The notes under the pieces: model-generated
The model's input: the letters and a program-made list of their open reading frames with translations, nothing else
What the model was told of the DNA's origin: nothing
Database searches by the model: none
Program-made: the position numbers and the translations under genes
NCBI GenBank assembly: GCA_944321725.1
Contig: CALUMI010000011.1
Span: 1-64,000 of the forward strand
Direction: 5' to 3'
Origin: an uncultured Muribaculaceae bacterium
GTDB taxonomy: Bacteria > Bacteroidota > Bacteroidia > Bacteroidales > Muribaculaceae
DNA: 64,000 nucleotides
Part shown: piece after piece, positions 12,181-29,687 of the stretch
Layout: every line of letters begins with the position of its first letter
Numbering within the stretch: position 1 is the stretch's first letter

Positions 12181-14577
12181 TCAGACGAGCTTACGCTGTC
12201 TGAAGATACTCCGTATGGCTTTCTTGGAATAGGGGGGGGTAGAACCGTTAAATATCACGTATAGACTGGGATAAGTGCCCTGTCGGTAGATGCGCTCAAG
12301 CTCCGGAAGCATGCGCCGGTCGAGCATTCCACGCCGGATTACGAACAATGTGTGGTTGGCCACGCGCGATATCTCAAGTGTGTCGGCAATTATATTGATA
12401 GGCGGAGCGTCCAAGAAAATGTAGTCGTACTGCGTTTTGAGGGTGTCGACGATTTCGTCGATTTTTCCGTTTTGCAGCAATTCGGTGGGGTCGGTCGGTA
12501 TTTTTCCAGAAGGGATGATGTCCAACCCCGTCACTATACGGTTTTTAAGGATTATGGACTCGATTGTCCCCGCGCCGTTGAGGTAGCTTGTCAGCCCGAC
12601 ACGCGGCTTGCCGACATATTCGCTCATCGACGCTCTGCGTATGTCTGCGTCGATTATCAGCACTTTCTTACCGCTTGCTGCGATGCTTGCCACAAGATTG
12701 AGCAGGAAAAATGTTTTCCCGCTGCCGGGATTGAACGACGTTAGTATTGTTATTGGTGTTTTGGCTTCATTTTGGGTTATTCTTGCGAAGTTGTTGCGCA
12801 TTTGTCTTATCGATTCTGTGAACAGGCTGTCTTTCTGTATCAGCAGCTTGGGCGTTTTGTCGGCTTTTGCCTCGATGTGGAGCAGATTGCAAAACCGTTC
12901 TTTTATGGTAATTCGCCCGATTTGTGGGATTTGTCCGATTACGCTGAATGAGTAGTTGTTGAAGTCGGACATTTCTTTCACGTTGTAGTTCAACAAATTG
13001 TCGACGGCGGCAGCGCTTACGGGGATTGCGATGAGCCCTATTATCGCCGCTATAAGGATTATGGTGGAGGGTTGCGGCCAGACAGGAGCGTCGTTGCCAT
13101 AGGCCGGCATGATTATGCGCACAGGCGAGAGCTCTATTTTCTCGGCTATGTCGCATTCCTCTCTTTTGTTGAGCAAATAGACCATTGTTTCTTCTTCGGC
13201 TTTTAATTTCCGTTGCAGCACGACCCATTGCTTCTCAATCTCCGACAATCCCGGTATGGCCGCAATCATTTTGTTATAGCGTTGCTCGGCGGTTTGTTGT
13301 TTTATTGCAAGCTGCTCGCGGAAGTGTGACAGCGAGCCGAGTATGTTGTCTTTTTGCAGCGACAGTTGTTTTTTCCGTGTTTGTATGGCAGGATTGTCGC
13401 TGTCGTAAGAGCCTGAGAGGGCAATAAGCTCAAGCACTTGCTCGTTGTACCGTATTATTTGCTGTCTTATGGCCAGACTGTCGATGCTGTTGTCGAGTGG
13501 CAGCATCTCATAGTTGCCGCTTTTGAAAGAATTGAGCTTGTTGATGAGAAATACGGCTATCTCGTCGGCTATCGAGGATTGCAACGCGTCGGACTGAAAG
13601 CTCGATGTCTCTTGGTAGTGGCGCGCTGTTTCCAATTCGGGGGTGGTTATCCCGTTTGTTTTCAGCAGTTGTGTGATTTGACGCTCTGTGGAGCGCATTT
13701 TCCCTGCTACGGAGTCGAGCAGCACTTCTATCGAGGCTTTTGATATGGCGGCGTTCTCGTCTTTTTGGCGGTTCCACACTTTGGTATAGGCTATAGGGAT
13801 ATGGTTGAGAATGTCGGCGGCGCGTTCGGGAGAATAGTCGGTGTAGTTGGTTTCTATTACAGTGGAGAACTGGTCGGTTTCCGCTTGTCTTATCGACGAT
13901 TGCATCATTGGTATGTAGATTGGTTTTGCCGTGTAGGAGAACTCGATTGCTCCGCTCTCCCAATTTTTGTAGTGCGGAGTTTCAATCAGTATTATTTCGC
14001 CTATCGGTGTTTTTGCGGGCTTTCCTGTCTCCGTGACGATGTCGTCTGTGCCGTCGTATTCTCCGTCCGCGTTGAAATCTGAGATTTTCAGTGAGTTGCC
14101 ATTACGGTTTATTTTGAACGACAGTCTGTCGATGCCTGAACGCTCTATGTCGGCAGGCAGAATCACTTCGATGGGGCTGTCCTTGTATAAAGGCTTTTTA
14201 CGCCGCAGCGCGTTTATGTGCCGGTAGTTGTAGTTCAAGTGCAACTCGTCGACTATTACGTCCCAAACCACATAGGAGTTGACCAGATGTTTCTCGTTGC
14301 TGAAACTTATTCCGGAGTTGAGCAGTCCGATATTGCTGAATACGAGCACGTCGGATGTCGTGGGCTGTCCTTTTGCGTCGTATTTCATGGTTATTTGTGA
14401 TGTGCGGCTCCATTGTTTCGGGGTATAGTAGAGGTAGGCAAACGCTATCGCGAGGCTCAACGCCGTAGAAATAACGACGAACAGGCGGTGCCGCATTATC
14501 CATTTCAGTATATAGCTTAGATTATTTTTGTCTTTGTTGCTTGAGTTGTAGTATATATTTTCACATGAAGCTGTCAT
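12181..14577 (-). CDS. Wzc-like chain-length regulator / tyrosine autokinase, second copy (tail lacks tyrosines)
   Basis: This inner-membrane polysaccharide co-polymerase controls chain length and export. The 798-residue layout is: cytoplasmic N-terminus, first membrane helix (about 32-50), a large periplasmic Wzz/coiled-coil part, second membrane helix (about 505-525), then a BY-kinase domain with Walker A SFNPGSGKT, IIDADIRRAS (Walker A') and Walker B YIFLDAPP. The C-terminus after VIFNGS is short and basic with one Tyr. The paralogue at 34501-36921 ends in a seven-tyrosine cluster, the usual autophosphorylation site. A run of eight C (plus-strand G at 12232-12239) lies at these tail codons, so slippage would change the tail. 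It is last in the polysaccharide operon, 83 bases after the second wza. Confidence 0.9.
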   Translation of the reverse strand: MTASCENIYYNSSNKDKNNLSYILKWIMRHRLFVVISTALSLAIAFAYLYYTPKQWSRTSQITMKYDAKGQPTTSDVLVFSNIGLLNSGISFSNEKHLVNSYVVWDVIVDELHLNYNYRHINALRRKKPLYKDSPIEVILPADIERSGIDRLSFKINRNGNSLKISDFNADGEYDGTDDIVTETGKPAKTPIGEIILIETPHYKNWESGAIEFSYTAKPIYIPMMQSSIRQAETDQFSTVIETNYTDYSPERAADILNHIPIAYTKVWNRQKDENAAISKASIEVLLDSVAGKMRSTERQITQLLKTNGITTPELETARHYQETSSFQSDALQSSIADEIAVFLINKLNSFKSGNYEMLPLDNSIDSLAIRQQIIRYNEQVLELIALSGSYDSDNPAIQTRKKQLSLQKDNILGSLSHFREQLAIKQQTAEQRYNKMIAAIPGLSEIEKQWVVLQRKLKAEEETMVYLLNKREECDIAEKIELSPVRIIMPAYGNDAPVWPQPSTIILIAAIIGLIAIPVSAAAVDNLLNYNVKEMSDFNNYSFSVIGQIPQIGRITIKERFCNLLHIEAKADKTPKLLIQKDSLFTESIRQMRNNFARITQNEAKTPITILTSFNPGSGKTFFLLNLVASIAASGKKVLIIDADIRRASMSEYVGKPRVGLTSYLNGAGTIESIILKNRIVTGLDIIPSGKIPTDPTELLQNGKIDEIVDTLKTQYDYIFLDAPPINIIADTLEISRVANHTLFVIRRGMLDRRMLPELERIYRQGTYPSLYVIFNGSTPPYSKKAIRSIFRQRKLV
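12232..12239 (-). repeat. homopolymer C8 in the kinase tail codons
   Basis: Eight consecutive G on the plus strand (C on the coding strand) encode the Thr-Pro-Pro junction near the kinase C-terminus. With nine C the tail becomes a different 16-residue sequence. With seven C it reads past the present stop for about 38 residues. Neither alternative restores a tyrosine cluster. Confidence 0.85.
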
Positions 14578-22242: not shown

Positions 22243-23382
22243 TTATTTATTTAGTGACGTTTTTAGGAAGTTTGTTGATTGTGTGCGTAGCTGTTCAATC
22301 AGTTGATTTGTTTTATCCCAATCAATTTTGTGAAATAGTATCTGCTTTAGATTGTTGTTAGCCATTGAGCATATAAGTCTATCCTCTAATTGTAAATCTT
22401 TTAGTAAAGATGTAAAACGAGAAAGTCCGCGTTGGATGTTGCCAAATGTTATAAAAGGTTTGTTAAACATTATCGCAAATATTGTGGCATGAAAAGAGTC
22501 TGTAATAATAAAATCTCCATAGGCAAAGCCAGAAATCCATTTTTCTATAGATGGAGCCATTAGTTTGTTTTTTGGAGCATTAGGATTCTCAGTTTCGTTA
22601 TTTATATATATGGGTTTGAGATCTAACTCTTTTGATACAATTTCTGCAAGTTTGTTTTTTTCTTCTGTTTTGTCCAAGAAATAGCAGCATAGACTTTTGT
22701 GATATTGTTCTGTGTTTTGGGGGTTGTTGACTAAGCTCAGGTAGTCACTTTTGTTTAGCAAGAAAGTAGGATCCAATACATGTACAGCGTCTATTCCAAA
22801 ATATTTGCGACATAAAAACGTGCCGGATTTTTCACGTGTGGATACTGCTGTGAATTTTGATAATAATGATTTGCATATTTTGGTTTGTTCGGCGTTATAT
22901 TCCCATTGGTCTGTACCGAAAGAAGGCGCATAAGCAATACGTTTTTGCTTATATGAATCGGGAAGAAAGTCAAGGTAATAATGAAAAATATCGGTTACGT
23001 ATTTTGGTCTCCATGTCTGATCGCTTCCGACAATATATGCGTCAAAGTGGTTTGATTCTGCAAAATTGCATGTTTCAGTTTTGCTGTATGTTGTTGTCAG
23101 GTCTGTTCCCAAATAATTATTAATAAAAGGAGTTAATTCTTTCATTTTTATAGATGGAAATCTCCCTCTATAGAATATAGGGCCTTTATAGCTTGTAATA
23201 CAGCGTCTTATGACTAATTTTGCAAATCTTTTCAATAACTCTTTGGGCTTTAATAATGGAGGTTTTCTTTCCAATATGGTTATGATGTGTCCTTCTTTTT
23301 TCAGGAAATTATATAAAGCGAAAGTCTGTAGTATTGAACCGTGACTTGGCTGTAAAGGAAATATTACAAGTGCTATTTTCAT
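22243..23382 (-). CDS. polysaccharide pyruvyl transferase family protein
   Basis: The 379-residue protein matches the PS_pyruv_trans family, members of which attach ketal-linked pyruvate from phosphoenolpyruvate to sugars. Visible family marks are the N-terminal GSILQTFALYNFLKKEGH, the DAYIVGSDQTWRP core, IAYAPSFGT, TAVSTREKSGTF, the VLDPTFLL segment and a late IITDSFHATIFAI motif. Such genes commonly accompany FrhB-domain genes, as here (26746-28581). It overlaps the upstream SGNH-like gene by 4 bases. Pyruvylation itself is inferred, since the family also has members of unproven activity. Confidence 0.87.
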   Translation of the reverse strand: MKIALVIFPLQPSHGSILQTFALYNFLKKEGHIITILERKPPLLKPKELLKRFAKLVIRRCITSYKGPIFYRGRFPSIKMKELTPFINNYLGTDLTTTYSKTETCNFAESNHFDAYIVGSDQTWRPKYVTDIFHYYLDFLPDSYKQKRIAYAPSFGTDQWEYNAEQTKICKSLLSKFTAVSTREKSGTFLCRKYFGIDAVHVLDPTFLLNKSDYLSLVNNPQNTEQYHKSLCCYFLDKTEEKNKLAEIVSKELDLKPIYINNETENPNAPKNKLMAPSIEKWISGFAYGDFIITDSFHATIFAIMFNKPFITFGNIQRGLSRFTSLLKDLQLEDRLICSMANNNLKQILFHKIDWDKTNQLIEQLRTQSTNFLKTSLNK

Positions 23383-24281
23383 TTTGTGAGGTCGATTATG
23401 AGTTGGTTGGTGAATGCTGTGGCTCCCTGCTTGTTCATGAAGTATGGATTTTGGAAATACTCGTCTTTTTGGAAGCGGGTGTCGTCCATATAGTCGATGA
23501 ACGGGGCAGGGGCGGTTTCCGCCTTGCGGATGAATGTGTAAATATAATTTTCGCGGAATGTGCCGCTCAATAGATGTGACAGCTCCGGATGGACGGGCGG
23601 GATGACGATGACGGGACGCAGCCCGCGCTCTACGCAGAATTCAACCATGCCGTGCAGCGTCTTTGCGCGGTCGGATTGGTCTTGGCTGTGATTCGCGCTC
23701 AGGGGGGCATCCAAATCGGTGATACCGAACTGCCTCATCCACCAATTATCGACGATGGTGCGCGCTTCTTTTTGGAAATCGCATTTTGCGGGTTTCCGAC
23801 GTGGGAGAATCTGCCGGGCATATTCTTTCAAAGTACGTTTTATGCATAGGCCGGGCATCGCCTTGAAAGGATTTGCCTTTATGGTGAGAGCTTTTATGCG
23901 CTCTTGTTCGTCAAATCCTATGATTGTGGCAGGGTGCAGGAATGTGTAGTATTTCAGATTCGACCGCGTTGTGTATTTCGCTTTTATGCACGAAAACGGG
24001 CTTATTGTGATTACGACGAAAGCCCCCTCTTTCAGATAGCTGAAGTAGTTTTTGAGGATATTGAAATCATGAACGAGCGACTGACGGCCTGTTGACCAGT
24101 TCATCCCTGTAAGTTTGCAGCCTTCGTAGCAGAAATCATATTTCCCGGCGTTACTGCCGAGATTCACTATTTCGATGTCGAATGTGCGGAGCGACCAGAA
24201 TTTTGGCACGCTGTCCCAATAGCGGTCGTACCATTCGGTTCCGCGTATGATTTTATTAAGTGCGCGATTTATCAAATTCAT
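23379..24281 (-). CDS. SGNH-hydrolase-like protein of polysaccharide loci
   Basis: The 300-residue protein resembles SGNH/GDSL-type proteins found in exopolysaccharide clusters. IEIVNLGSNAGKYDF could hold the nucleophile-type serine block, GAFVVITISPFS resembles the second block, and FIDYMDDTRFQKDEYF near the end resembles the acidic C-terminal block, although the usual catalytic His is not obvious. There is no signal peptide. Roles proposed for relatives include O-acyl transfer or removal; here function is unproven. It overlaps the next gene by 4 bases and follows the disrupted aldo/keto reductase by 15 bases. Confidence 0.6.
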   Translation of the reverse strand: MNLINRALNKIIRGTEWYDRYWDSVPKFWSLRTFDIEIVNLGSNAGKYDFCYEGCKLTGMNWSTGRQSLVHDFNILKNYFSYLKEGAFVVITISPFSCIKAKYTTRSNLKYYTFLHPATIIGFDEQERIKALTIKANPFKAMPGLCIKRTLKEYARQILPRRKPAKCDFQKEARTIVDNWWMRQFGITDLDAPLSANHSQDQSDRAKTLHGMVEFCVERGLRPVIVIPPVHPELSHLLSGTFRENYIYTFIRKAETAPAPFIDYMDDTRFQKDEYFQNPYFMNKQGATAFTNQLIIDLTK

Positions 24282-24296
24282 AGCTGTATGGTTTGT

Positions 24297-25224
24297 TTAA
24301 AGTCCCGGGCAAGAGCGTGATTCCGGCATGTATTGCCGGTTCTCGTTGCAGGCAAGCAGTTGTCGCATTTCCTCTTCGGAGAGTGTGAAATCAAAGATGC
24401 CGATATTGCTTTCCAACCGTTCGCGGTGCGTGGATTTGGGGATGGGTATCATTCCGCGTTGCACATCGAAGCGCAGTACGATTTGTGCCTTTGTCTTTGA
24501 ATATTTGCCGGCAAGGTGTTGAAGCAAATCGTGGTACTGAGGGCGTGATTGCAGCCTGAGGTTCATCAGCGGCGAATAAATCATCACTTGGATGTCGTTC
24601 TGCCTGCAATATTCGGCCAATTCCGGCTTGCTGTTGATTGGCGATGTTTCGAATTGGTTGATCATCGGCAGGATGGCACATGTTTGCCGCAATTTTTCAA
24701 AATGGCGTTGGCGGCAGTTGCAGACGCCTATCGAGCGGACTAATCCTTCGTTGTAGACGGCTTCCATTTCGTGCCATATCTCTTGGAAGAAATCAGGGTA
24801 TGGCCAATGCATCAGCAGTGCGTCAAGATAGTCGGTCTGCAGTTGCCGCAGGCTGTTTTCTACTTTCATTCTCACAATGCGTCTCACCGAATCGGGCTTT
24901 TGCATCTCCGGAGAACTTTTCCAAAAATATATGCCTCTGTTGGAGCCCCCCCCCTAATGTGCCGGGTTTGTAGAGCTCATCGCTGATTTTTGTCACGATG
25001 AACAGCTCTTCGCGTTTTGCGCCGCGAGTCTTGCAGAGTGATTGCAGAGCGTTGCCGAGATCCGCCTCGTTGTAATAGTTGTCGGCGGTGTCGAACAGGC
25101 GGTATCCGGCATCGTAAGCACAGGCCACAGTGTCGGTAAGCGCTTGCCCGAATATCGGCCATGTGCCCATGCCTATTGCCGGTATTTCCACTCCGTTGGC
25201 AAGCGTTTTTGTCGGTATGCTCAT
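24297..25224 (-). pseudogene. aldo/keto reductase, out of frame at a G9 tract (phase-off or pseudogene)
   Basis: Two adjacent frames together encode one aldo/keto reductase of 308 residues. The first, from the ATG at 25224, has GVEIPAIGMGTWP, the Asp/Tyr of FDTADNYYNE and the Lys of FIVTKI. The second has the catalytic His in LLMHWPYPDFFQ, RSIGVCNCRQRHF, and the nucleotide site PIPKSTHRERLESN. They are separated by nine G on the coding strand (24946-24954). Eight G, or eleven, would join them; with nine the protein ends about 33 residues after the tract and lacks the His and the C-terminal NADPH site. Everything else is intact, which favours slippage or sequencing error over decay. The start overlaps the flippase stop by 4 bases. 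Confidence 0.85.
24946..24954 (-). repeat. homopolymer G9 (coding strand) in aldo/keto reductase
   Basis: Nine consecutive C on the plus strand, within the Leu-Gly-Gly-Gly codons of the reductase. As written the reading frame is broken. Loss of one base restores it. Confidence 0.9.
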
Positions 25225-26732
25225 AGTTTTGATTTTATCAAATTGAATAATTTTTGCCGCGTTGTCTTGTCCATGCCTATGTATAAACTCGATAATGCCG
25301 CGGATATTGTGGTGATTATTACTGTGATAATCAATCGCAGAATAGACTCTTCCAAGAATTTGTCGTACACCATATAAGGGATAACGAATGATACTGCTGC
25401 CACTGCGATGCACCTGAGATGAACGCTTGTGAAGTAGCCGCGCATGGAATAGCGGATGTATTTTTTCAAAACCAAGGCGCTTGCAAATTCCGACAGCAGC
25501 ATTGTGGCGTTAGCTGCCCAAAATACGGATTCCGGCGGATAGCCGAGCCGCAGCAGCGCGTATGCCAAGGGGAAAGCGGCACATAGGATTGTGCCCACAA
25601 TGATGTTAGACAGTTTCAGATGCCCACAGGCATGGAAGATTGTCGAGCGGGGTGTCTTTACTGTCTGTATCAGGCAGAGTATGATTACTAAAATAAGGAA
25701 ACTTACGGAATGATCGGGATATTCTCCGAGCCACAACCGCAAGATGTATGGGCTTTCCAAGCATATCGGCAATGATATGGCCCACATCAGGTAGAATGAG
25801 AAATTGCTGCTTTGACATACCAATTTCATCATGCCTTTTATGTCGCCTTCTGCATACGACTTGATTATCTGTGGGCGTACGGCTGTCATGAAGTTCGCGC
25901 TGAATTGGGTTATTGCGCCTTGCACTTGATAAGCGATTCCTCTTGCCGCGTTGACCACAGGCCCGAAAAACATGTTGAGCAGGATGTTTAGCCCTTGCCC
26001 TTGCGCAAGTACGGAAATTTGCCCTATCATATCCGATCCCGCGTAACCAATCATTTCTTTGTATAAAGGTTTGTCTTTGCATAAGGCGATTTTGCACTCT
26101 CTGAATTTGCGGTTGCAATAATAGCGGTAGTATAGCTGAATGGAAACCTGCACGGCGCAGAGCATCGCCGCATAGAATACCAACTTGTCGATTGAAGAAA
26201 TATGTATGAGGTATGCAATGGCAAGTTTTGCCAAAGCGTCGAAAATGCCTACAGCGGCGAATATTCGCATGTCCTCGTGCGCGATGATTGTGGCATTATA
26301 GGGCACTTGTGTCAGTGAGACGAAACAGGTGGCTATTGAAATTTGGTACACCCAGAATGCGGCATTTAGGCGGTCGGGCGGGATGGTCATCTTCTCATAG
26401 AAAAACCACAGGCCTATTGTTTCTGCTAAAATAGTTATGACAATGGCTATCATTATGTGGACAACGAAAGCTACGTTGAATACTTCGTTCAGCCGTTTGT
26501 GGTTTTTACGTCCCAACTCGAATGTGATGTAGCGTGATGTGGCGGCTCCGAGCGATCCGTTGAGGAATGTGAACATCGTCACGATGCCTCCGACAACGTT
26601 GTACAGTCCGAAATCTTCCGCTCCGAGCACTTTCAGAACCACTCGCGACGTGTACAAGGTGACGCACATCACAAGCAGCATCCTGAAATATAGCAAGGCC
26701 GTGTTTTTTGCTATTCGTTTGCTGTTGGGCAT
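25221..26732 (-). CDS. Wzx-type oligosaccharide flippase
   Basis: This membrane transporter of the MATE/MVF-like Wzx group flips lipid-linked repeat units to the periplasmic side. The 503-residue protein has about 12-14 hydrophobic segments and the family opening RIAKNTALLYFRMLLVM, LYTSRVVLKVLGAEDFGLYNVVGGI and SLGAATSRYITFELG. It pairs logically with the EpsG-type polymerase in a Wzx/Wzy pathway. The stop overlaps the aldo/keto reductase start (ATGA). It follows the FrhB fusion gene by 13 bases. Confidence 0.92.
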   Translation of the reverse strand: MPNSKRIAKNTALLYFRMLLVMCVTLYTSRVVLKVLGAEDFGLYNVVGGIVTMFTFLNGSLGAATSRYITFELGRKNHKRLNEVFNVAFVVHIMIAIVITILAETIGLWFFYEKMTIPPDRLNAAFWVYQISIATCFVSLTQVPYNATIIAHEDMRIFAAVGIFDALAKLAIAYLIHISSIDKLVFYAAMLCAVQVSIQLYYRYYCNRKFRECKIALCKDKPLYKEMIGYAGSDMIGQISVLAQGQGLNILLNMFFGPVVNAARGIAYQVQGAITQFSANFMTAVRPQIIKSYAEGDIKGMMKLVCQSSNFSFYLMWAISLPICLESPYILRLWLGEYPDHSVSFLILVIILCLIQTVKTPRSTIFHACGHLKLSNIIVGTILCAAFPLAYALLRLGYPPESVFWAANATMLLSEFASALVLKKYIRYSMRGYFTSVHLRCIAVAAVSFVIPYMVYDKFLEESILRLIITVIITTISAALSSLYIGMDKTTRQKLFNLIKSKL

Positions 26733-26745
26733 TCTTCGGATGTTT

Positions 26746-28581
26746 TTAATACCATTCTATATTTTCTTTAATCACTTTTGCCGGAGAGCCGGCTACGAGG
26801 CTGTGTGGCGGAACGTCTTTTGTGACGGTGGAGTTGGCAGCCACTACGGAACCTTCGCCCACAGTTACGCCCGGCATGATTGTGCAGCCTGTGCAAAGCC
26901 AAACATGGTCTTCTATACGCACAGGGGCATGGGTCACGTAATGGTCGTTGACGATGACGTGGCCGCCGTTGAAGTCGCGGATTGAAACGTTGCGTCCTAT
27001 TCTTACCCAGTTGCCGATGGTCACTTCTTTTGCGCACATGATTGTCAAGCCTACATTTGCTGCGCCTTGCCCGATTGTCAGTTTGCCGCGATTTATTATC
27101 TCAATATACGCGCCGTATTTTAATGAATATGCCCCTTTTCCGTAGCGTGTGAGTGGGCCGTCGTTGATAACGAGCCGGGTATTTGCCGTCATTTTAAGGC
27201 ATGTGGGCATTCTCATTCCTTTTACTGGGTGGTAACCGTAGACAAACGGGGCGTTGATTTCTATTTTGGCGGTAGGATGTATGTCGAATACTGTTCCTGC
27301 CGGCGTGTATATCACATGTCCGGCCTTAAAATCCGAAAGGGTGTTTTTCCTGCTGTTCAGCCGCAGAAATCTGATGTATGCGGGAATGGAAAATCCGAGA
27401 TATGTGTAGAGCAGGAAATAAGGCTTGATTAAGCGTTTTAGTTTGCCTTTGATGGAACCGGGTTTGTTGTGTCTGAGCGGAAAATGCTTTTCCGCTACTT
27501 TGTCGAACGGCATCGTGTCGAGATCCTTGAAAAATTCTTCCCTATTGATTGTGGCCGGCCCCATAGGATGGAGGAGAGCCTTATTTCCGGGCAGAATCGA
27601 TTCGAATTTGGTTTCTTCCCACTCCAATTGGTCTTTTGCAAGCTCGAAATACCGTTCTCCTTTTTTGGAGTTCAGCAGTATCATCGATGTCCCGATGTTG
27701 TTGTCGAGGTTGGGGTCGATTTTTTCAATACCCCAATAGTCTGCGATGGTTATGTCAGCCATTCGCGGAAATCCTTTGTATTGGCAAACGTAGCAACATG
27801 GTCTGGAGAACGCGTTGGTGTGGTAGCCTCTGCGGAAATCGTCTTCCATGCGGATTCCGTAATATTTCTTGCCATTGTCGAATACTACTTTCCGCGTCAG
27901 GTTGCGCCATCCCAATTCTTTGTTTTTGGCTTTTACATAGACTACTTTTCCTCCGAATTTTTGCTCTAATGAGTCAAGATATTTCCGGTACACTTTTGGC
28001 GAATTTATTCCAAGACAGATGAAATCGACAATTATTAGATTTTCATAGTCCTTTCCTAAGAAAGAGCGCAATGCGGCCATTTGGCATGGTGTGCCGCAGG
28101 CCAATACTTTCTCGCCTTTGCGCAGCAATGTGCGTATTTCTTTATATAGACCTTCTGCTTTGCTTTGCAAATATTTGGAACTGCGCAGTTTTGGCAGGTC
28201 GTCGGGATTGTTGGATATGTAGTTTCTTACGGAGAAATCGTCGTTGTAGACGGCTCCACTCACGTATCCTCCTTGCCGGTACATAGCTTCCGCCAATGCT
28301 GAGAACGCGCCTCCGGATGTGCTGTCCCAGCGGATGTCCATGCGCTTGTTGATTGCGGCAATGGTGTGGGCCGGACGCTCATAGTCGTTTTTCTTCAACT
28401 CTGTGATGTGGAGTTCCGGACATACTTTTTCACATAACCCGCATTCCACGCATTTTGCCTTGTCAACTTCCGGATACCAAAAACCTTCGTTGTCGGTTTT
28501 TAGTGATATGGCATTATGTCCGCAGATGTCAACGCAGGCGCAGCATCCTGTGCATTTGGATTTATCTGTGATTTGTATCAT
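26746..28581 (-). CDS. ferredoxin/FrhB-domain protein fused to a hexapeptide acetyltransferase
   Basis: This unusual 611-residue fusion starts with a two-cluster ferredoxin: Cys10, 13, 16, 20 and Cys44, 47, 50, 54, each in C-x2-C-x2-C-x3-C spacing, for two [4Fe-4S] clusters. F420-hydrogenase beta-subunit-like N and C domains follow (about 85-340: STSGGAFSALAEAMY, ACGTPCQMAALRSFL, FCR-like and CYVCQYKGFPRMADITIADYWG motifs). After a linker, residues about 430-611 form a left-handed beta-helix acetyltransferase of the colanic/maltose type (GNWVRIGRNVSIRDF, HVWLCTGCTIMPGV, GSPAKVI). FrhB-like proteins often accompany pyruvyl-transferase-like genes in glycan loci, as here. The redox substrate is unknown. 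No frameshift or stop separates the two halves. Confidence 0.85.
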   Translation of the reverse strand: MIQITDKSKCTGCCACVDICGHNAISLKTDNEGFWYPEVDKAKCVECGLCEKVCPELHITELKKNDYERPAHTIAAINKRMDIRWDSTSGGAFSALAEAMYRQGGYVSGAVYNDDFSVRNYISNNPDDLPKLRSSKYLQSKAEGLYKEIRTLLRKGEKVLACGTPCQMAALRSFLGKDYENLIIVDFICLGINSPKVYRKYLDSLEQKFGGKVVYVKAKNKELGWRNLTRKVVFDNGKKYYGIRMEDDFRRGYHTNAFSRPCCYVCQYKGFPRMADITIADYWGIEKIDPNLDNNIGTSMILLNSKKGERYFELAKDQLEWEETKFESILPGNKALLHPMGPATINREEFFKDLDTMPFDKVAEKHFPLRHNKPGSIKGKLKRLIKPYFLLYTYLGFSIPAYIRFLRLNSRKNTLSDFKAGHVIYTPAGTVFDIHPTAKIEINAPFVYGYHPVKGMRMPTCLKMTANTRLVINDGPLTRYGKGAYSLKYGAYIEIINRGKLTIGQGAANVGLTIMCAKEVTIGNWVRIGRNVSIRDFNGGHVIVNDHYVTHAPVRIEDHVWLCTGCTIMPGVTVGEGSVVAANSTVTKDVPPHSLVAGSPAKVIKENIEWY

Positions 28582-28587
28582 TGTTCT

Positions 28588-29145
28588 TTAGTTGATTTGC
28601 CATTTGTTTTGGATGTATTCGGGGTGGGAGTGGTTGGAGATTATTTTGGCGGGGATTCCGGCGGCAGTGGTGCCTGCCGGAATGTCGCGCGTAACGACGG
28701 CTCCTGCTCCGATAGTGGCGTTGTCGCCTATTTTCACGTCTTCGACAATGCAGACCGACGGCCCTATGTACACGTTGTCGCCTATCGTTGCGGGCGTGCC
28801 TTTGTTGCTGCCGATGTTGAGAAACTGGCTGATGTTGCAGTTATTACCGATTTTGGTGCCCGGATTTATCACTATCCCTATGCCGTGCCCTATGTAGAAT
28901 CCGTAGCCGATTTTTGCGGTGGGCGGTATCTGTACACAGTAGAGCCGCGACAGGCGGTAGTGTTTCAAACGGGCAATTATGTAGAACGGATTTTTTCTCA
29001 TGCAGAGTCTTAGCCAGAACGAGTAGGCGAAACAGTGGTTTTTAGCTATTAATGCCGTGAGGATGATTTTTAGCAGGGATGTGTTGTACCCCCCCCCGTA
29101 ATATCGGTGGTAATCGCTTCTGATATATGTGATTATATCTTTCAT
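28588..29145 (-). CDS. serine-acetyltransferase-like hexapeptide acetyltransferase with in-frame G9 tract
   Basis: A 185-residue CysE-related O-acetyltransferase likely to modify a sugar of the polysaccharide with acetyl-CoA. The left-handed beta-helix is clear: IGYGFYIGHGIGIVINPGTKIG, NISQFLNIGSNKG, IGDNVYIGPSVCI, IGAGAVVT and GIPAKII. The His of GHGIG is the expected catalytic residue. Codons 17-19 are three GGG, a run of nine G (29089-29097). One base lost or gained gives a stop within roughly 10-25 codons, so slippage would turn the gene off near its start. It overlaps the upstream acetyltransferase stop by 4 bases. Confidence 0.87.
   Translation of the reverse strand: MKDIITYIRSDYHRYYGGGYNTSLLKIILTALIAKNHCFAYSFWLRLCMRKNPFYIIARLKHYRLSRLYCVQIPPTAKIGYGFYIGHGIGIVINPGTKIGNNCNISQFLNIGSNKGTPATIGDNVYIGPSVCIVEDVKIGDNATIGAGAVVTRDIPAGTTAAGIPAKIISNHSHPEYIQNKWQIN
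29089..29097 (-). repeat. homopolymer G9 (coding strand), acetyltransferase 1
   Basis: Nine C on the plus strand, encoding Gly17-Gly19 in frame. Both one-base slip products stop soon afterwards. Confidence 0.9.
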
Positions 29146-29687
29146 TCGTTTTTTTGTTGACTTGTGCGGTAGCGTATCACACGGGCAGGATTACCGGCAA
29201 CTATGGCATAGTCGGGGACAGGTTTCGTTACTACTGCTCCGGCTCCTATTATCGAGCCTGTGCCGATGGTTCGTACGTTGCCGAGTATGATGGCGCGTGT
29301 GCCTATCCATACATTGTCTTTTATCTCTAATTCGCTTTTTGGTATATTGCCTTGCATACCTATGGGTAGCAATGGGTTATCATGCCTGTGCCCCCCCCCT
29401 TGAATGAGGATGTCGGGGCCTGTCATCACATGGCTGCCTATTTTCAGTTTAGTGTTGCGTATAATCATGTTGGGGCCGAGCCCGGAATTGTCGGCAATCT
29501 CAATGTCGGTGCCGCGTCCGAAATGCACTTTACGGCATACGTCGATATGCTTGCCGCATGAGCGAAAAATGTTGCGGCAGGCCAAATACCTCATATTTCT
29601 GCACAGGTGCCCTATCACGGGGAACGTGGTGTTAGGCAGGTGTTGCAGAATCGCGTAGTATAAAAATAATGAGATATAATATTTCAT
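29142..29687 (-). CDS. hexapeptide O-acetyltransferase (maltose/galactoside type) with in-frame G9 tract
   Basis: A 181-residue left-handed beta-helix acetyltransferase of the WcaF/NodL/maltose type. It has DIEIADNSGLGPNMIIRN, MTGPDILIQ, the catalytic-type His100, IKDNVWIGTRAIILGNV, IGAGAVVTKPVP and VAGNPARVI. The three glycines just before His100 are encoded by nine G (29391-29399). A slip of one base in either direction leads to a stop within about 10 codons and removes most of the helix. It is followed by the second acetyltransferase gene with a 4-base overlap. An N-terminal hydrophobic stretch (about 1-25) may associate with the membrane. Confidence 0.87.
   Translation of the reverse strand: MKYYISLFLYYAILQHLPNTTFPVIGHLCRNMRYLACRNIFRSCGKHIDVCRKVHFGRGTDIEIADNSGLGPNMIIRNTKLKIGSHVMTGPDILIQGGGHRHDNPLLPIGMQGNIPKSELEIKDNVWIGTRAIILGNVRTIGTGSIIGAGAVVTKPVPDYAIVAGNPARVIRYRTSQQKNE
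29391..29399 (-). repeat. homopolymer G9 (coding strand), acetyltransferase 2
   Basis: Nine C on the plus strand encoding Gly97-Gly99, next to the catalytic-type His100. In frame in this assembly. Confidence 0.9.

Follow-up and report, generated by a model that had tools for sequence, protein, structure and literature searches.

An aldo/keto reductase gene interrupted at a G9 tract in a Bacteroidales glycan operon: very probably a slip-prone on/off switch

Switching of genes by slippage of poly-G tracts is a classic mechanism of Campylobacter and Neisseria. In Campylobacter jejuni, poly-G/C tracts switch surface glycans (PMC6321876, PMC8437040, PMC3068675), and 52% of the phasome tracts of Campylobacter are G9 and 30% G10 (PMC6321876). 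Poly-G tracts of Neisseria lie in the reading frames of the TonB-dependent receptors HmbR/HpuAB (PMC3786947). Switching of capsules and of nutrient receptors in gut Bacteroidales has been described as DNA inversion, for the capsule as promoter inversion (PMC3090145). According to a review of 2025, Bacteroides switches by inversion, and genomes with many phase-variable loci are apparently confined to pathogens (PMC11868660). We found no report of poly-G phase variation in Bacteroidales in the open-access literature, and novelty at the level of the taxon is provisional.

Here, we describe a gene cluster in a window of 64 kb (the whole stretch of DNA analysed, part of contig C11 of the draft genome G000, which comprises 2.53 Mb in 66 contigs). 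With the C. jejuni phasome it shares G9-G10 tracts in glycan-modifying reading frames, several tracts in one operon, both tract-bearing and tract-free homologs, and a mixture of ON and OFF phases. It differs in that the organism belongs to the Bacteroidota, that there are far fewer tracts per genome (18), that reversible switching is here a prediction from sequence, and that a TAA/TAG-like 3′ flank accompanies most tracts in Bacteroidales. The Mpi-type invertible promoters of Bacteroides (PMC3090145; PMC11868660) belong to the same order and likewise lead to stochastic capsule variation, but inversion toggles whole loci, whereas here single modification genes of one operon would be switched by frameshift. 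The Neisseria receptors resemble SusC-like genes of another genome analysed below (G692) in carrying the tract within a TonB-dependent receptor reading frame, although the tract of G692 is placed within the signal peptide or adjacent to it, and receptor family and phylum are different.

The interrupted reductase gene and its operon

The gene encoding the aldo/keto reductase (AKR) occupies positions 24297 to 25224 on the minus strand. Its start codon (25222-25224) overlaps the TGA of the preceding flippase gene (ATGA, 25221-25224), in agreement with the translational coupling claimed in an earlier note on this DNA. The reading frame proceeds for 90 codons from the ATG into a run of nine G (codons 91-93, gene positions 271-279, 3′ flank CTCC), which corresponds to nine C on the plus strand at 24946-24954. 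There the frame is lost, and a stop at 24823 terminates a predicted truncated product of 133 codons in all (24823-25224), which extends through β-strand 3 and then continues as a 40-residue out-of-frame tail. Beyond the tract, another frame is open to 24297 without any further stop (218 codons counted from the tract); the part following the tract comprises 215 codons, from SNRGIYFWK to SCPGL, and contains no second defect. The match to Pfam family PF00248 breaks at the same place, the 5′ frame covering profile positions 2-72 and the 3′ frame positions 84-290. Asp, Tyr, and Lys of the catalytic tetrad (DTADNY, VTK) are encoded 5′ of the G9, while His (MHWP) and the cofactor region IPKS...R are encoded 3′ of it. 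The earlier note had stated that the gene is split exactly at the tract, that the catalytic residues are divided between its halves in this manner, and that restoring the frame yields a protein of ~308 residues free of other defects; frames, profile match, and residues bear out all three statements. One class of tract lengths thus gives a complete conserved AKR and the other classes truncate it.

The barrel match in two pieces together with the complete tetrad places the protein in the PF00248 superfamily. The solved structures closest to it are those of general AKRs such as YvgN and DkgA. Tested against the NCBIfam equivalog for 2,5-didehydrogluconate reductase (DkgA/DkgB), the two halves, scored separately, reached 141.6 and 45.5 bits, and their sum, which refers to the halves and not to a joined protein, is well under the cut-off of 425 for DkgA. 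Judging from the content of the operon, the enzyme may reduce a keto-sugar intermediate; its state would presumably affect the glycan and leave export unaffected.

The glycan genes are packed on the minus strand from 29687 to 15685 with intergenic gaps of −4 to 15 bases. Assigned by Pfam, they comprise a hexapeptide acyltransferase (29142-29687), a serine-acetyltransferase-like hexapeptide acyltransferase (28588-29145), an FrhB/FdhB-like protein fused to a hexapeptide acyltransferase (26746-28581; the order is kept in L138-L140), an intact MatE-type flippase (25221-26732) upstream of the AKR gene, a gene 3′ of it without Pfam match (23379-24281) whose position is kept in all four ortholog operons, a polysaccharide pyruvyl transferase (22243-23382), and more glycan genes. 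Both of the first-named acyltransferase genes also contain a G9 tract on the minus strand, at codons 17-19 of the serine-acetyltransferase-like gene (29089-29097) and within QGGGHRHD of the other (29391-29399). These two tracts are in frame (ON), and the three G9 tracts fall within 4.5 kb. Outside this group, a G8 followed by TAGAA is found at 12232-12239, antisense near the 3′ end of a Wzc-like gene (12181-14577); it is in frame, and a change in its length would alter the last ~17 residues of the gene product.

Tracts at homologous sites in other Bacteroidales

The AKR gene has orthologs, with the operon order preserved, in L020/L132 (an assembly of Mediterranea massiliensis), L133 (G778), and L134 (G957). 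The first two are intact and encode Gly-Gly-Gly as GGA GGT GGA, without a tract. In L134, GGT is followed by G9 at the same site and in the same OFF phase, and both halves are otherwise intact. Genome G957 belongs to the family of Mediterranea, which differs from that of the window, both being Bacteroidales; L134 is 61-66% identical to L020 at the amino acid level, and around the flippase its DNA is ~70% identical to the window. The AKR tract therefore recurs as G9 in two families, OFF in each. As G957 contains just two tracts of at least nine G in 2.3 Mb, a match at the homologous glycines by chance is very unlikely; the probability is ~1e-5 if a tract may be placed anywhere and, by our own estimate, ~1% if tracts are restricted to Gly-Gly-Gly codons.

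The search for further alleles was carried out with one genome per species. A DNA search of 297 genomes of the family yielded no AKR ortholog, only short scattered matches, and the gene is absent from the three congeners. More distant AKRs (L022-L026) were dropped from the comparison as they are missing the Gly-Gly-Gly segment and are uninformative on the tract.

The neighbouring tracts were compared in the same way. The acyltransferase at 28588-29145 has an 80% identical ortholog in another genus (L103; G111, genus g24), in which these codons hold a G10 that is in frame (ON) because the flank differs. In a 61% identical ortholog (L106; G146, g21), they hold a G8, and the gene is OFF. At this homologous site, lengths and phases thus differ: G9 ON, G10 ON, and G8 OFF. 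In G170, a homolog of the acyltransferase at 29142-29687 (L092) is OFF, with a G9 close to the N-terminus and a TAA directly after the tract. The capsule operon of G111 contains, besides one G10 tract that is ON, a G9 tract that is OFF (L141:12523-13573), splitting an Acyl_transf_3 gene at profile position 233/244 with the match resuming in the other frame. Three tandem Acyl_transf_3 genes of G007 (L047:51-4600) each contain a C-tract few codons past the start, which is C9 ON, C9 ON, and C10 OFF, respectively. Phases mixed in this way are what one expects of contingency loci.

These comparisons bear on the alternative that survives best, namely, that the AKR gene is a young pseudogene, in which a G-run arisen by drift has slipped once and switching is not under selection. 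The two tract-bearing alleles, those of the window and L134, are OFF in the same phase, and none among the four known orthologs is a tract-bearing allele that is ON. However, a single recent inactivation is hard to reconcile with the independent G9 that L134, from a different family, has at this site, and with the two additional in-frame G9 tracts of the operon, one of which has tract-bearing orthologs both ON and OFF. Secondary damage is absent as well: between the window and L134, amino acid identity is 62% for the 5′ half and 65% for the 3′ half, and between L134 and L133 it is 82% and 80%. Equal conservation of the halves, which was judged by amino acid identity and dN alone because synonymous sites are saturated for dN/dS, fits poorly with a long-dead 3′ half. 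The relatives bearing a fixed frameshift and accumulating stops that the earlier note had named as contrary evidence did not turn up; a relative is either tract-free and intact or, as in L134, shifted at a G9 without other damage. We therefore regard recent inactivation as unlikely.

Number, phase, and flanks of the tracts

Runs of C in the 64-kb window show a gap in their length distribution, with six runs of length 5, none of lengths 6 to 8, and three of length 9, the latter being the AKR tract and the tracts of the two acyltransferase genes. In shuffles of synonymous codons across the 18 operon genes, 0.0115 G/C runs of at least nine were expected compared to two observed (AKR excluded), and none of 2000 shuffles reached two. 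The 18 operon proteins contain only two Gly-Gly-Gly tripeptides, both of which are encoded by GGG GGG GGG, although GGG accounts for 14% of glycine codons. Outside the window, G000 was covered by pattern searches and through the stretches surrounding tracts. Throughout this genome, 37 runs of at least seven G are present, 18 with a length of 7-8 and 19 with at least nine. Excluding a G22 run at a contig start (L038:49-70), which resembles a sequencing or assembly artefact, 18 credible tracts of at least nine G remain, twelve G9 and six G10, and these two lengths also prevail in Campylobacter phasomes. The AKR tract is accordingly a homopolymer inside a reading frame whose length exceeds chance. 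A promoter role of this tract was considered and rejected, as it lies deep inside the gene and a scan for sigma-70-type promoters gave only a modest excess (22 versus 14.8 in shuffles).

Phases were scored by asking which class of tract length links the longest frame before the tract to the longest frame after it. Over the unique coding tracts from a set of 27 (one listed twice) plus the three of the window, ~18 are ON and ~11 OFF. The genome G692, a single contig of 3.7 Mb, contains genes for SusC-like TonB receptors (L143-L157) whose G9 is situated within the signal peptide or adjoins it, as in ...SAKVAWGGVKTTNPQEVLQ; of these genes, L147 is in frame and L144 and L148 are out of frame. Counted on forward and reverse strands, genomes contain between 0 and 34 tracts, some counts including runs at contig ends. 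Other G10/C10 tracts of G000 (L039, L033, and L034 on contigs C35, C13, and C14) are candidate OFF switches; that of L039 parts a signal peptide from a subtilase, and those of L033 and L034 split long unknown or AraC-like reading frames. A G9/G10 was also observed ~22-23 bases upstream of a start codon at L027 and L037:9275-9284, where transcriptional or leader-level switches are possible.

Given these data, it is very unlikely that the true AKR tract has 8 G and that the intact gene was merely misread in sequencing or assembly. G000 is indeed a draft of 66 contigs, with an artefact-like G22 at one contig start, but the same +1 state was obtained independently in the L134 genome, the two sister tracts of equal length in the operon are in frame, and tracts in orthologs of the neighbouring gene have lengths of 8, 9, and 10. 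The single-contig genome G692 presents the same mixture of ON and OFF, and even with a consensus of 8 G, the AKR tract would stay a candidate switch. Programmed recoding, by which the ribosome or RNA polymerase would slip on the G9 and produce truncated and full-length protein from one DNA state, is scarcely credible: G-runs are slippery and the two tract-bearing AKR alleles share length and frame relation, but the site is not conserved, since two of the four orthologs lack both the shift and a slippery run, so that no short product is conserved; the stop context is not conserved either (between tract and 0-frame stop there are 2 codons in L134 and ~40 in the window), and other tracts occur in all phases, ON included.

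The sequence 3′ of the tracts was analysed for 80 distinct runs of at least nine G from eight genomes (G000, G007, G692, and relatives; L027-L077, L143-L162). Of the 80, 60 have T as the next base, 48 continue with TA, and 41 with a stop triplet; the mirrored 5′ control of the same tracts gave TA in 16 and a stop triplet in 15. In G000, GGGGGGTARAA occurs 11 times and the reversed pattern twice. Selection for a stop in the OFF frame explains this flank partially at best; TAA/TAG is found at coding and intergenic tracts alike, so stop selection cannot be the whole reason. The common G9-10TAA/TAG flank may hint at a shared origin or at a sequence-dependent generation or maintenance of the tracts. 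It is missing at both AKR tracts and at the tract at 29391.

A proposed slipped-strand switch

The independent G9 of L134, the phases of the neighbouring tracts, the genome-wide excess, and the ON/OFF mixtures elsewhere make slipped-strand phase variation the best explanation, with the AKR gene having been read in its OFF phase; judged from sequence, we consider this likely. Replication slippage would change the number of G in the AKR tract. Lengths of 3n+2 (8, 11) would join the halves into an NADPH-dependent reductase of ~308 residues, and lengths of 9 and 10 would lead to an early end of translation. The truncated protein would keep the first part of the (β/α)8 barrel and be devoid of the catalytic His and the cofactor-binding C-terminus. 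Given the established architecture of AKRs, such a product should be inactive, and the OFF state should be enzymatically null. Cells of one population would presumably differ in tract length.

The flippase gene lies upstream and is untouched by the AKR tract; a polar effect of the OFF state on the downstream genes is possible. With three tract-bearing modification genes, AKR and two acyltransferases, in one operon of the capsule/exopolysaccharide type, up to 2^3 decorated glycan forms could arise by chance while flippase and polymerase are kept.

The G9 run of the AKR gene is thus very probably a slip-prone on/off switch, and the G9 of L134 suggests that the style of switching found in Campylobacter and Neisseria operates in Bacteroidales commensals too. 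Whether gut Bacteroidales possess a previously unrecognised poly-G phasome, in which G9-G10 tracts, mostly with the G9-10TAA/TAG flank, independently toggle single capsule-decorating enzymes such as acyltransferases and the AKR, and SusC-type receptors, is in our judgement evenly balanced. Automatic annotation would label such tract-split genes as broken. Capsule decorations affect recognition by phages and by the immune system. If the proposal is true, single decorations of the capsule would vary stochastically in commensals.
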